Source of the DNA: Syntrophotalea acetylenivorans
Lineage (GTDB): Bacteria > Desulfobacterota > Desulfuromonadia > Desulfuromonadales > Syntrophotaleaceae
Assembly: GCF_001887775.1 (NCBI RefSeq)
Contig: NZ_CP015519.1
Location: forward strand, 1,612,001 to 1,676,000
Length of the DNA stretch: 64,000 nt
Direction of reading: 5' to 3'
In this document: one piece after another, positions 3,342 through 7,943 of the stretch
How the letters are laid out: each line of letters opens with the position of its first letter
Position numbering within the stretch: the first letter of the stretch is position 1
Made by a program: the position numbers and the translations under genes
Notes under the pieces: generated by a model
Seen by the model: the letters and a program-made list of their open reading frames with translations, nothing else
What the model was told of the DNA's origin: nothing
Database searches by the model: none

Positions 3342-4664
3342 ATGAACAGCACTCCCCATCAAACCCTGGAACATTTAACCACCATTCTCGACAGTGTTGC
3401 TGACGGTGTTTTTACCGTCGACAGTTCGATGCACATCACCTGGTTTAACCGGTCGGCAGAGCAAATCACCGGCTTTACCCAACAGGAAGCCCTGGGCCGG
3501 CCCTGCTGTGAAATTTTTCGAAGCAGCATCTGTTTCTCCGCCTGCCCGGTTCGCGAAGCTATGGCCAGCGGCCACAGTGTGGAAAATCGCGAAATTGACA
3601 TTCTCAATCGGGATAACCGGGAAATCCCCATCTCCGTCAGTGCCTCGGTCCTGCTGGATGCCGATGGCCAGCCAACCGGAGGCGTGGAAACCTTTCGCGA
3701 CCTGTCCCGACTACGCGCCCTGCAACAAGAAGTCAGCGACAAGTATACCTTTCACGACCTGGTCAGCCGTAATCCAGCCATGCGTAAACTCTTCGACATT
3801 CTGCCCGACGTGGCCGCCAGCGATGTCACCACCCTGCTACAAGGGGATAGCGGTACAGGCAAAGAGCTCTTTGCCCGCGCCTTGCACGATCTCAGCCCCC
3901 GAGGGAACAAGCCCTTGATTACCGTCAACTGCGGAGCCCTGCCGGAACAGCTACTCGAAGCGGAAATTTTTGGTGCCCGTAAAGGAGCTTATACCGGCTC
4001 GGTTGAGGACCGCCCCGGCCGTCTTGCCCAAGCCGAAGGCGGCACTTTGTTTCTCGATGAAATCGGCGACCTTCCCTTATCGCTGCAAGTGAAGTTGTTG
4101 CGTGTTTTGGAGAATCGTGAATATCAGCCTCTGGGGGCCAAAGGGGCACGGCGAGCCGATGTACGGTTTATCGCTGCAACCCATCGCCACCTGGACAAAA
4201 TGGTTACAGCCGGAACCTTTCGCCAGGACCTGTTCTTCCGCCTCAACGTTGTGCAACTAACCATTCCAGCCCTGAGAGACCGGCCCGAAGATATCCCCTT
4301 GCTCCTGGACATGGCTCTTGACCGTTTTAATATGCAGTACGGAAAAAATATTCGCGGATTTGAGCCGGAAGTTCTTAACTTGCTCCTTGATCATCCTTAT
4401 CCAGGGAATGTAAGAGAATTATTGAATATCATTGAAAGAGCTGCCATTCTCTGTCGTTCCGAGCAGATTACCTTGGACCTGCTCCCCACCAGCCTGACCC
4501 TTCATTCGACAGTCAATCATCGACCGACCAACAACCGCCCCGATAGCGATCAATTAAAGGGGATGCTGGCTCGACATGCCGGCAACCGCACGGCCCTGGC
4601 CAGGGAACTGGGTATTAATCGAACCACGCTCTGGCGTTGGCTAAAGGACTGCGATTTTCATTGA
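3342..4664 (+). CDS. Sigma-54-dependent activator with cysteine-bearing PAS domain (OrpR-like)
   Basis: 440 residues. A PAS domain (about 10-120) carries C55, C56, C64 and C68. A central AAA+ domain has Walker A GDSGTGKE (168-175), a variant sigma-54 contact loop GAYTGS (215-220; usual GAFTGA) and Walker B FLDEIGD around 237-243. A Fis-type helix-turn-helix ends the protein (about 415-437). It should recognise enhancer sites and drive sigma-54 RNA polymerase. The cysteines fit a redox- or Fe-S-sensing PAS as reported for OrpR of Desulfovibrio; that role is inferred here. Three inverted repeats and a -24/-12 promoter lie directly downstream, before an Orp-like operon, so the cognate targets are probably those sites. 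Confidence 0.88.
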   Translation: MNSTPHQTLEHLTTILDSVADGVFTVDSSMHITWFNRSAEQITGFTQQEALGRPCCEIFRSSICFSACPVREAMASGHSVENREIDILNRDNREIPISVSASVLLDADGQPTGGVETFRDLSRLRALQQEVSDKYTFHDLVSRNPAMRKLFDILPDVAASDVTTLLQGDSGTGKELFARALHDLSPRGNKPLITVNCGALPEQLLEAEIFGARKGAYTGSVEDRPGRLAQAEGGTLFLDEIGDLPLSLQVKLLRVLENREYQPLGAKGARRADVRFIAATHRHLDKMVTAGTFRQDLFFRLNVVQLTIPALRDRPEDIPLLLDMALDRFNMQYGKNIRGFEPEVLNLLLDHPYPGNVRELLNIIERAAILCRSEQITLDLLPTSLTLHSTVNHRPTNNRPDSDQLKGMLARHAGNRTALARELGINRTTLWRWLKDCDFH

Positions 4665-4674
4665 CCCGCACCCC

Positions 4675-4689
4675 GTTGCACCGAGCAAC
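4675..4689. promoter_or_regulatory. Inverted repeat, putative enhancer site 1
   Basis: GTTGC and GCAAC arms separated by 5 bp. It is the first of three sites sharing these half-sites upstream of the sigma-54 promoter. Confidence 0.5.
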
Positions 4690-4692
4690 ACC

Positions 4693-4711
4693 GTTGCATA
4701 ATTAATGCAAC
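4693..4711. promoter_or_regulatory. Inverted repeat, putative enhancer site 2
   Basis: GTTGCATAATTAATGCAAC: 6-bp arms GTTGCA/TGCAAC with a 7-bp AT-rich centre. It is about 160 bp upstream of the -24 element, a usual enhancer distance for this activator class. Confidence 0.65.
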
Positions 4712-4763
4712 ACACCCCGTCCAGCCTTTCCCTCCTATTCGTCCACTCTTCCTTAGCCAAAGC

Positions 4764-4777
4764 GTTGCAGATGCAAC
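4764..4777. promoter_or_regulatory. Inverted repeat, putative enhancer site 3
   Basis: GTTGCAGATGCAAC: the same GTTGCA/TGCAAC arms with a 2-bp spacer. It lies about 95 bp upstream of the -24 element. The AT-rich stretch between about 4828 and 4868 separates it from the promoter and could bend. Confidence 0.6.
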
Positions 4778-4872
4778 AGCCCCCCACTTCCCGCTAAAAT
4801 TCACAATCCATAGAAACCATCCCAACCTACTGTTTTTAATATCTTTTTAAAGCCCTCTAAAAACAGCCAACC

Positions 4873-4888
4873 TGGCACAACTCTTGGA
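4873..4888 (+). promoter_or_regulatory. Sigma-54 (-24/-12) promoter
   Basis: TGGCAC, five bases, then TTGGA, against the consensus TGGCAC-N5-TTGCW. The GG-to-G(C) spacing is canonical and only the -12 C is replaced by G. It lies downstream of the gene for a sigma-54 activator and three inverted repeats. The predicted transcription start is about 4898-4900, nearly on the ATG at 4901. Confidence 0.75.
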
Positions 4889-4900
4889 ATACAAGAGATC

Positions 4901-5347
4901 ATGTCAACAGACTCCAACCATACGTTACGGCGAATCGCCATTCCCCACTATGGTCAGCGGATCATGCCCCGTTTTGGTTTAGCACGGCAATTTTACCTGC
5001 TGACTGTCGATCACCACAAGGCCCCGATCGGACCTCCTGTTAACACCCGGTGGGACCCTCGCCAGGAACCTTCAGTAGCCCGTTGGCTTAAACAGATGAA
5101 CGCGTCCGGTGTAATCTGCGACGGTATACATCCACGTTTTCAAACAGCCCTCAAAGCAGAAGGGTTGTGGGTGCTGAGCGGTGTCTGGGGAGAGATCAGC
5201 GATGTGATTGAGTGCTGGATCAAGGGTCAGTTAACAGCAGAAAACAATTCGGACAGCTTGAATTTGGCGACTTGTTGTCGCCCAAACCGCAACTACTGCC
5301 ATGACCGCAATTGCACTAAAACCTCAACAAGGAGAAACCCAACATGA
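4901..5347 (+). CDS. NifX/NafY-like (Fe-Mo cofactor family) protein with cysteine-rich tail
   Basis: 148 residues. Residues 10-113 resemble the dinitrogenase iron-molybdenum cofactor-binding fold (R-I-A-I-P...P-R-F-G...F; central G-V-I-C-D-G; D-V-I-E-C-W-I-K-G-Q-L), the family of NifX, NafY and the orange protein ORP. The tail adds C125, C126, C133 and C138, which could bind metal. First gene of the operon after the sigma-54 promoter; its stop overlaps the next start (ATGA, 5344-5347), indicating translational coupling. No other start precedes the conserved R-R-I-A-I-P, although the predicted transcript begins only 1-3 bases before this ATG. Cofactor identity is unknown. Confidence 0.78.
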   Translation: MSTDSNHTLRRIAIPHYGQRIMPRFGLARQFYLLTVDHHKAPIGPPVNTRWDPRQEPSVARWLKQMNASGVICDGIHPRFQTALKAEGLWVLSGVWGEISDVIECWIKGQLTAENNSDSLNLATCCRPNRNYCHDRNCTKTSTRRNPT

Positions 5348-5703
5348 AAATTGCCATTACCGCTCAGGAACCGTCCTTGGACAGCCTCATCGATCCCCGC
5401 TTTGGTCGCGCTCCCTGGCTGATGATTTACGATCCGACCGATAATAGCTGGCATTCCATCGACAATAGCAAAGGTCTCAATGCGGCCCATGGTGCCGGAA
5501 TTCAAGCCGCGCAAAAGGTTGTCGACCAACAGGTAACAGCCATCATCACCGGCGCTATTGGACCTAAAGCTTATCGCTCCCTTAAAGCTGCCAACGTGCA
5601 AATCTTCCATGGTGCCAAAGGCTCCGTTGCTCAAGCTCTGGAGGCCTACCAAACCGGAGACCTAGCCGAAGCTGACGAGGACGATGCCACCGGCGGTATT
5701 TAA
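5344..5703 (+). CDS. NifX/NafY-like dinitrogenase Fe-Mo cofactor family protein
   Basis: 119 residues. M-K-I-A-I-T opens a single-domain NifX-type fold with the family pattern ...P-R-F-G-R-A-P...; G-A-G-I-Q-A-A; A-I-I-T-G-A-I-G-P-K-A; and a C-terminal segment A-L-E-A-Y-Q-T-G-D-L. Such proteins hold or carry Fe-S/Mo-type clusters; no cysteine ligands are visible here. An acidic tail (E-A-D-E-D-D) ends it. A GGAG lies upstream of the start inside the preceding gene, and the ATGA overlap couples the two. Confidence 0.85.
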   Translation: MKIAITAQEPSLDSLIDPRFGRAPWLMIYDPTDNSWHSIDNSKGLNAAHGAGIQAAQKVVDQQVTAIITGAIGPKAYRSLKAANVQIFHGAKGSVAQALEAYQTGDLAEADEDDATGGI

Positions 5704-5724
5704 TTCCTTTTCGGCCTTACACCC

Positions 5725-5743
5725 GCCCGGTAATCGTCCGGGC
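5725..5743 (+). other. Hairpin inside the operon
   Basis: GCCCGG-TAATCGT-CCGGGC in the 68-bp gap before the first ATPase gene. No T-run follows, so mRNA processing or stability is likelier than termination. Confidence 0.45.
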
Positions 5744-5771
5744 TCGAATAAATACTAACTAGGATCGGATA

Positions 5772-6659
5772 ATGAACCAACATGTTGCCATCGCTAGCGG
5801 CAAAGGAGGTACCGGCAAGACCACCATCGCCGCCAACCTCGCTTTTCTTTGGGCCCGCCTGGGCCGTCAGGTCCTGTACGTCGATTGCGATGTTGAGGCT
5901 CCCAACGGTCATATTTTCCTACATCCGAAAATAGAGCAACGTCTACCGGCAACCACAACGGTGCCACAAATCGCCAAAGATCTCTGCGGTCTCTGTGGCC
6001 GTTGCGGATCTTTTTGCCATTACAATGCCCTGCTCTGTTTGCCCGATCAGGTACTTACCTTTCCCGAGTTATGCCACGGCTGCGGCGGCTGTATCCGGCT
6101 CTGTCCCCACCAGGCCATCAGCGAAGTTCCCCGCGAAATAGGCCGTATTGAAATGGGTACCGCAGGGTCTGTCAATTTTGCCAGCGGCCTGCTTAACATC
6201 GGTGAGGCCATGAGTCCGCCGTTGATTCGATCCTTGAAAAATTCCCTGATTGAATCGGACCTGACAATTATTGATGCACCACCAGGCACCTCCTGTCCCG
6301 TTATCGAGAGTATTCGGCACTGCGACTATACCTTGCTGGTAACGGAACCGACTCCCTTTGGACTCAACGATCTGCAACTGGCCGTGGAGATGTTGCGGGC
6401 ACTGGACCAACCCTTTGGCGTCGTCATTAACCGCGCCGGACTTGATGACCGGCCGCTGCTCGATTACTGCCTGAAGGAGCAACTACCCATCCTGGCGCAA
6501 CTGCCGGACGATCGCCGCGTAGCCGAGGCCTATTCCCGGGGGGAACTCGTCTGTTCAGTGTTGACTGATTTCCAACAGCTTTTCGCGGCGCTTCTAGCTG
6601 CGGTAGACATGGTATTGCAACAGAAAAAGGCCAACCTAACGACGGGGAGGGCATCATGA
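5772..6659 (+). CDS. MinD/Mrp-type ATPase with inserted 2x[4Fe-4S] ferredoxin domain (first copy)
   Basis: 295 residues. A deviant Walker A GKGGTGKTT (about 10-18) and a D-C-D-V-E-A-P-N segment place it in the SIMIBI MinD/Mrp class. A ferredoxin-like insertion carries two motifs, C72-x2-C75-x2-C78-x3-C82 and C101-x2-C104-x2-C107-x3-C111. The switch region I-D-A-P-P-G-T-S-C-P-V follows near residue 175. These ATPases occur with NifX-like proteins in the orange-protein complexes of anaerobes; a metal-cluster loading or transfer role is inferred. The next ATPase gene overlaps it by 4 bp (ATGA). Confidence 0.88.
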   Translation: MNQHVAIASGKGGTGKTTIAANLAFLWARLGRQVLYVDCDVEAPNGHIFLHPKIEQRLPATTTVPQIAKDLCGLCGRCGSFCHYNALLCLPDQVLTFPELCHGCGGCIRLCPHQAISEVPREIGRIEMGTAGSVNFASGLLNIGEAMSPPLIRSLKNSLIESDLTIIDAPPGTSCPVIESIRHCDYTLLVTEPTPFGLNDLQLAVEMLRALDQPFGVVINRAGLDDRPLLDYCLKEQLPILAQLPDDRRVAEAYSRGELVCSVLTDFQQLFAALLAAVDMVLQQKKANLTTGRAS

Positions 6660-7552
6660 AAGAGCTGGTAATCATCAGCGGGAAAGGCGGGACAGGAAAG
6701 ACCTCCGTTGCCGCCTCCTTTGCAGCTCTGGCCGAAAATGCGGTGGTGGCCGATTGTGATGTGGACGCAGCCGACCTGCACTTGGTACTGGAACCGCAAG
6801 TTCTTGACCGCCATGATTTTTCCGGTGGATTCAACGCCACGGTGCGCACTGTCCAATGCAGCGGTTGCGGTACCTGCTTGCAGCTTTGCCGGTTTGGCGC
6901 TGTGAACCTGGATCGGGGCCGTGCTCAGATAGACCCCATCGCCTGCGAAGGCTGCGGAGTATGCAGCCATTTTTGCCCGGAAGAGGCCATCGATTTCTCC
7001 CCCTCCATTAACGGCCAGTGGTTTCTGTCCACGACTTGCCACGGCCCCATGGTCCATGCCCGACTCGGAATCGCTCAGGAAAACTCCGGCAAGCTGGTCT
7101 CTTTGATTCGAAAACAGGCAAAACAAATCGCCGCTAACGAAGACCGCAACCTGATCATTATCGACGGCTCTCCCGGTATCGGTTGCCCCGTCATCGCCTC
7201 CTTGACCGGCGCCGACCAGTTACTGGCGGTAACCGAACCGACCATGAGCGGCCGCCACGACCTGAAACGGGTAGCGGATCTCGCAGCGCACTTTGGCTCT
7301 CCCCTGGCGGTATGCATCAATAAATGGGATCTTAACCCGGACCTGACCCGGTTAATCGAAGACGACGCCCGGCAACGCAAACTGCCGGTGGTTGGTCGGA
7401 TCCGTTATGACCGCGCAGTCACCGATGCCCAGATCCACCGTCGAACGGTAGTTGAACATACCCCAAGCGGAGCCGCCACAGATATTAAGAAGCTATGGCA
7501 GGCAATTTCGACCCTGCTGTCAGCACCGCAAACACCAAAGAACCACCCATAG
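6656..7552 (+). CDS. MinD/Mrp-type ATPase with inserted 2x[4Fe-4S] ferredoxin domain (second copy)
   Basis: 298 residues, same architecture as the preceding gene: Walker A GKGGTGKTS (about 9-17), D-C-D-V-D-A-A-D, cysteine motifs C68/C71/C74/C78 and C97/C100/C103/C107, then I-I-D-G-S-P-G-I-G-C-P-V. The two sequences are clearly diverged, so this is an old paralogue pair; MinD-class ATPases dimerise, and a heterodimer is plausible. The start overlaps the previous stop as ATGA. A C-x2-C-x2-C-x3-C arrangement in both copies predicts eight ligands each. Confidence 0.88.
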   Translation: MKELVIISGKGGTGKTSVAASFAALAENAVVADCDVDAADLHLVLEPQVLDRHDFSGGFNATVRTVQCSGCGTCLQLCRFGAVNLDRGRAQIDPIACEGCGVCSHFCPEEAIDFSPSINGQWFLSTTCHGPMVHARLGIAQENSGKLVSLIRKQAKQIAANEDRNLIIIDGSPGIGCPVIASLTGADQLLAVTEPTMSGRHDLKRVADLAAHFGSPLAVCINKWDLNPDLTRLIEDDARQRKLPVVGRIRYDRAVTDAQIHRRTVVEHTPSGAATDIKKLWQAISTLLSAPQTPKNHP

Positions 7553-7604
7553 TCCGCCCTTTAGTGTCGTTCGGGCCAACAAATCTCTTACACAGGAGCA
7601 CCAA

Positions 7605-7943
7605 ATGAAAATCGCCATTCCTCTTCATCAAGGATCGTTGAGCATGCATTTCGGCCATTGTGAGCATTTCGCTCTGATTGAAATTGATGAGCAGAAAAAA
7701 GCTGTTCTCGGCGAGAGCCTTCACGAACCGCCCCCCCATGAACCAGGCCTGCTGCCCCGCTGGCTTGGTGAATTAGGTGCCGACATGGTCATTGCCGGCG
7801 GCATGGGCCGCCGGGCACAGGAACTGTTCGCCAACAACAATATCGCCGTGCTGGTTGGAGCCCAAGGGATTTCCCCTCAGCAATTGGTATCAGACTATCT
7901 GACCGGCAACCTGCAAACCGGTGAAAACTGCTGTGACCATTAG
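7605..7943 (+). CDS. NifX/NafY-like protein with C-terminal CCDH
   Basis: 112 residues: M-K-I-A-I-P-L...M-H-F-G-H-C-E-H-F, then D-M-V-I-A-G-G-M-G-R-R-A-Q-E-L-F and a C-terminal L-T-G-N-L-x5-N-C-C-D-H, typical of small dinitrogenase-cofactor-family proteins near Fe-S MinD ATPases. H-C-E-H near the N terminus and C-C-D-H at the end could bind a metal. ATG 7605 is preceded by AGGAG at good distance; the longer frame from 7452 overlaps the upstream gene and lacks homology. Last gene of the operon, followed by a strong hairpin. Confidence 0.85.
   Translation: MKIAIPLHQGSLSMHFGHCEHFALIEIDEQKKAVLGESLHEPPPHEPGLLPRWLGELGADMVIAGGMGRRAQELFANNNIAVLVGAQGISPQQLVSDYLTGNLQTGENCCDH

Follow-up and report, generated by a model that had tools for sequence, protein, structure and literature searches.

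The closest described counterpart of the locus considered here is the orp system of Desulfovibrio vulgaris with its sigma54 activator DVU2106, which we take to be OrpR, a regulator for which an Fe-S signal has reportedly been found. The D. vulgaris orp genes form two divergent operons, and IHF sites have been proven there. DVU2106 of D. vulgaris Hildenborough recognises palindromes located upstream of the orp promoters, which are of sigma54 type (PMC3897727), and the gene list of the orp cluster (PMC6345978) resembles the operon described below. In sigma54 enhancers more generally, activator sites lie about 100-150 bp upstream of the -24/-12 promoter (PMC7057263), as they do here. We analysed a 64,000-nucleotide stretch of the Syntrophotalea acetylenivorans genome (hereafter the window), together with homologous loci from other genomes, and compare it with these systems. 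The type of switch is known from Desulfovibrio, and the layout and promoter found here differ from it in consistent ways.

The activator and its operon

The activator gene (3342..4664, + strand) encodes a protein with the architecture of a single-component sigma54 activator, that is, a PAS sensor domain, an AAA+ domain, and a Fis-type HTH domain (Pfam families PAS, Sigma54_activat, and HTH_8). Three cysteines of the PAS domain, Cys55, Cys64, and Cys68 (residues 55-68, window 3504-3545), are invariant in 83/83 aligned homologs, which suggests a candidate Fe-S or redox input site. Residues 215-220 (codons 3984-4001, + strand) form a GAYTGS loop, where most activators have GAFTGA and DVU2106 of D. 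vulgaris has GAFTDA (PMC4641369). The genome has 18 strong activator loci (four weak matches left out), no other of which has tyrosine in the loop, and a single rpoN was found.

Downstream, the activator gene adjoins a set of orp-type genes on the same strand, which encode three small NifX/ORP-type proteins and two MinD-like ATPases. The first operon gene (4901..5347) is of NifX/ORP type (PF02579, Pfam), followed by an ORP-type gene (5344..5703, PF02579) whose product matches the solved orange protein 2wfb (E 2.7e-20), two genes for MinD-like ATPases with a 4Fe-4S motif (5772..6659) or 4Fe-4S motifs (6656..7552; both by Pfam), and a further ORP-type gene (7602..7943) matching the C-terminal (ORP) part of the MrpORP model (E 2.3e-36); the last scores below the whole-protein cut-off of that model because it is a single-domain protein. 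Both here and in D. vulgaris, a PAS-type sigma54 activator gene lies beside ORP, MinD-like Fe-S ATPase, and NifX-type genes (PMC6345978), and palindromes precede a sigma54 promoter, the D. vulgaris sites being compared by their description (PMC3897727). However, the genes at 3342-7943 form one co-directional run instead of two divergent operons, so that the locus is a variant of the D. vulgaris arrangement and not the same one.

Half-sites and enhancer layout

The gap between the end of the activator ORF (4664) and the start of the next ORF (4901) measures 236 bp. An earlier note on this DNA had described three GTTGC/GCAAC inverted repeats directly after the activator gene, and all three are present: GTTGCACCGAGCAAC at 4675-4689, GTTGCATAATTAATGCAAC at 4693-4711, and GTTGCAGATGCAAC at 4764-4777, with half-sites 95-198 bp upstream of the promoter sequence TGGCAC-N5-TTGGA. 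The spacers quoted for them mix two arm lengths, as 5 bp presupposes 5-bp arms, whereas 7 and 2 bp presuppose 6-bp arms. The intergenic region 4665-4900 holds six half-sites against a shuffle mean of 0.66 and three dyads against 0.003 (neither count was reached in any of 5000 shuffles), and the window contains five GTTGC-N2-10-GCAAC matches versus 0.76 expected (0/100 shuffles reach 5).

Across the 3.2-Mb genome, the strict motif GTTGCA-N0-8-TGCAAC occurs at four places, two of them in the 4675-4777 region, against one for the reversed control. The remaining two (L001 and L004) fall inside open reading frames, and no further targets of the activator were found in the genome by this motif. The loose motif GTTGC-N2-10-GCAAC occurs at 67 places (38 for the reversed control) and is thus common as single matches, so that the information is carried by the cluster and the hexamer arms; among the loose-motif matches listed, no other two lie within 1 kb of each other. 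Frequent occurrence without sigma54 promoters, which the earlier note had named as counting against its reading, is therefore seen for the loose motif only.

Homologs were gathered from overlapping samples of 146, 198, 277, and 395 genomes (class and phylum level) plus named contigs. From 140 non-redundant homologs, three without a readable GAFTGA-type motif and 46 not beside orp-type genes were dropped, leaving 91; a further four without a promoter at the score used, and four with a weak promoter and fewer than two half-sites, were then set aside. The resulting 83 loci were split by loop motif into a GAY set of 39 (window included) and a GAF set of 44. In each of the two HTH-defined clades (46 and 57 loci), no 6-mer 3' of the activator gene is more over-represented than GTTGCA/TGCAAC, and the 300 bp before the promoter contain 265 half-sites versus 37.8 expected in the GAY clade (39 loci) and 80 versus 13.1 in the GAF clade (44 loci). 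Homologs beside orp-type genes have a median of 4 half-sites per 400 bp, with four or more in 48/91, versus a median of 1, with four or more in 3/41, for homologs located elsewhere. The motif thus follows the activator-operon pair and is mostly absent away from orp-type genes, in line with the earlier proposal that the sites serve the adjacent sigma54 activator as its enhancer. Not every member uses the GTTGC/GCAAC half-site, since 15/91 orp-adjacent homologs have none or one per 400 bp.

Several individual loci deserve mention. Just 3' of the activator homolog at L009, L010, and L065, GTCGC/GCGAC dyads replace GTTGC/GCAAC with the N4 spacer kept, and some GAF-clade loci carry GTCGCA dyads instead. 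Downstream of the activator homolog at L119, six half-sites and a TTGG promoter precede a gene not recognised as orp-type, where another gene may have co-opted the enhancer-promoter module. At L008 (6323-6778; protein same as L014), from a close relative whose activator is 89% identical, nothing scores as a promoter at the threshold applied, leaving TGGTAC-N5-TTCGA, and the operon's first gene appears truncated; this is possibly a decaying locus.

Within the gap, the element nearest to the promoter is the dyad GTTGCA-N2-TGCAAC at 4764..4777. An N2 dyad occupies the equivalent position, -80 to -122 from the -24 T, in 29/39 GAY loci and in 19/24 genus-level groups (L006 merged into the genus of the window), and this position holds 29 of the 32 N2 dyads of the clade. 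The other ten GAY loci have N1 (three), N3 (three), N4 (one), N14 (one), or no dyad (two) there; the spacing of the proximal dyad is strongly preferred, though not absolute. In the GAF clade, the pattern used for GAY gives 11 N4 dyads spread over five genera but no N2 dyad, and relaxed half-sites give nine N4 and one N2. The dyad spacer therefore goes with the activator clade and its HTH, in which residue 433 is Trp in 39/39 GAY-clade activators and Lys in 40/44 GAF-clade activators.

Farther from the promoter lies a distal array (4675..4711) of four half-sites, at 4675-4680 (right), 4684-4689 (left, a 5-bp match), 4693-4698 (right), and 4706-4711 (left). Arrays of three or more half-sites within 42 bp occur in 22 genus or record groups, L006 being counted here as its own group. 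The commonest step between neighbouring half-sites is 9 bp (20/72 steps), and the ten steps of 2 bp arise where GTTGCAAC makes half-sites overlap. The array ends are convergent, with the first half-site pointing right and the last left, in 18/22 groups (binomial p 3.6e-8, on the assumption of independent groups and random orientation). The inner half-sites vary, from right-left-right-left in the window to right-left-left-left (L075) and right-right-right-left (L117, L121). On this comparison, the first two "palindromes" of the window are best read as one array of four half-sites, which would explain the apparent variability in spacing.

The earlier note had instead viewed the repeats as three independent palindromic dimer sites read by a flexible activator dimer, with half-sites mattering more than dimer phase. 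Three dyads do exist in the genome of the window, and N1 to N8 dyads are all found upstream of GAY-clade promoters; nevertheless, the N2 preference at the proximal position and the often non-palindromic distal element of relatives make a flexible dimer improbable. The claim of variable spacing finds little support at the proximal dyad, and most of the variation lies in the distal array, where half-sites may indeed outweigh dyads. Still less probable is binding by another regulator, for instance a nucleoid protein or one repressing the activator gene: it draws on the fact that binding by the adjacent activator is a prediction, but it accords poorly with a half-site that two diverged clades share, that in both lies between a gene of this activator family and a sigma54 promoter, that is mostly absent where the homolog is not beside an orp-type gene, and whose dyad spacer tracks the activator clade. 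RNA hairpins, acting as a terminator or attenuator, would suit inverted repeats directly 3' of a stop codon but can practically be dismissed, as 4600-4960 contains no terminator-like site and the distal half-sites of several relatives are direct repeats unable to form a hairpin. The recurrent GTTGCA/TGCAAC words most likely serve as conserved binding sites for the neighbouring activator of a small iron-sulfur protein operon.

An A/T-rich stretch between the dyad and the promoter (4830..4852, + strand; identified by eye, with similar stretches in many relatives) might conceivably be a bend or IHF region. IHF may help here as it does in D. vulgaris; the one match to the IHF consensus between enhancer and promoter has a mismatch (4823-4835), and such matches are near chance level in the window (98 versus 74.4).

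The promoter and the activator loop

The sigma54 promoter TGGCACAACTCTTGGA (4873..4888, + strand; TGGCAC-N5-TTGGA) agrees with the consensus TGGCAC-N5-TTGC in its -24 element and spacing, but has TTGG instead of TTGC at -12, so that it could be weak or misassigned. The same departure recurs in relatives, where the promoter caller left the -12 base unscored. A full TTGC is found at -12 in 0/39 GAY promoters versus 25/44 GAF promoters, and the C is kept in 4/39 versus 40/44, four GAF promoters lacking it. The GAY promoters comprise 21 TTGG, 10 TTGT, and eight others, the -12 elements at Tyr-activator promoters being TTGG, TTGT, TTGA, GTGA, GTGG, GTGC, and ATGC, and all ten GAYTGS promoters of the main set have TTGG. 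Ten genomes contain both types: in eight, the GAY promoter lacks the C while the GAF promoter has it, and in the remaining two (G027 and G047) both promoters have it, the GAY promoter being GTGC.

These patterns raise the possibility that the activator loop and the -12 element changed together, Tyr activators and TTGC-avoiding promoters forming a private pairing under one shared sigma54. The idea is plausible in that, in structures, the GAFTGA loop occupies the groove immediately downstream of -12 (PMC9770992), and that Tyr stands in for the GAFTGA Phe in a few activators (PMC7057263). Two GAFTGA proteins (L125 and L185), placed inside the GAY clade or at its base, have TTGC promoters, but also a different first gene. 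Against a strong claim, a survey whose scope leaves out -12 elements reports that GAYTGA variants can activate sigma54 promoters (PMC6615313). The Fisher p of 1.6e-14 for the loop/-12 association ignores relatedness; the tree has F and Y changing twice, with a single independent pair among the supported branches, and on it the association is without significance. With only one or two evolutionary changes behind it, the association is weakened. Near other GAFTGA proteins of the genome, promoter-like sites have TTGC at L190, L192, and L206, whereas TTGT at L203 and TTGG at a second L206 site speak against a simple loop/-12 rule; 13/18 activator loci of the genome have no high-scoring promoter-like site. 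We regard the pairing as a tentative idea, and a rather doubtful one. A literature search, to which 2011 work on the D. vulgaris sites and 2009 work on the GAFTGA phenylalanine were out of reach, gave in the entries listed and consulted no statement of loop/-12 covariation or of this half-site array.

We also considered a general TTGG promoter class in this genome, but signal and chance were not separated in the counts of TGGCAY-N5-TTGG (18 versus 9 in the control) and of the TTGC form (24 versus 11).

By the usual 12-base rule, the predicted sigma54 start lies at about 4899, 2 bases before the ATG (window 4887-4901). An in-frame start codon falls within -3..+8 of the predicted start in 32/38 usable GAY loci and 8/25 GAF loci. 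This spacing implies either leaderless mRNA or transcripts that start elsewhere. Leaderless mRNA is not claimed, because many loci have, by eye, a purine-rich tract before the ATG that resembles a ribosome site and would then be untranscribed.

A proposed mechanism and its meaning

Taken as a whole, the region is very probably an enhancer-promoter module of the orp-type operon, driven by the predicted binding of the adjacent OrpR/DVU2106-like sigma54 activator. The sites, promoter, gene neighbourhood, conservation, and layout are observed; from them we infer the binding, stoichiometry, looping, and signal, as well as any functional link between Tyr loop and TTGG, as follows. A dimer of the Fis-type domain of the activator would bind the proximal GTTGCA-N2-TGCAAC dyad, while further subunits would fill the distal array of about four half-sites, whose outer pair is convergent. 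Occupancy of dyad and array could seed the AAA+ hexamer, which would loop to the sigma54 polymerase at 4873-4888 and open it through the Tyr-containing GAYTGS loop at the non-standard TTGG -12 element, with an Fe-S or redox input possibly entering via the PAS cysteines.

The enhancer appears to be real and conserved, and although its kind is known, its layout is distinct: unlike D. vulgaris orp, the locus combines a TTGG -12 element with an N2 dyad and a half-site array. Compared with general sigma54 enhancers such as NtrC and NifA sites, the half-site, N2 spacer, and distal array are, to our knowledge, particular to the GAY clade. What had been a list of palindromes thereby becomes a defined layout for the enhancer of an anaerobe Fe-S operon, made up of an N2 dyad and a half-site array, and the GTCGC/GCGAC variant could serve to map HTH specificity. 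If the loop/-12 pairing is true, the loop would read the -12 fork in evolution and not only in laboratory mutants. Genomes with both activator types, in which one promoter has C at -12 and the other G, T, or A, offer natural matched pairs for testing GAFTGA-loop sensing of the -12 fork.
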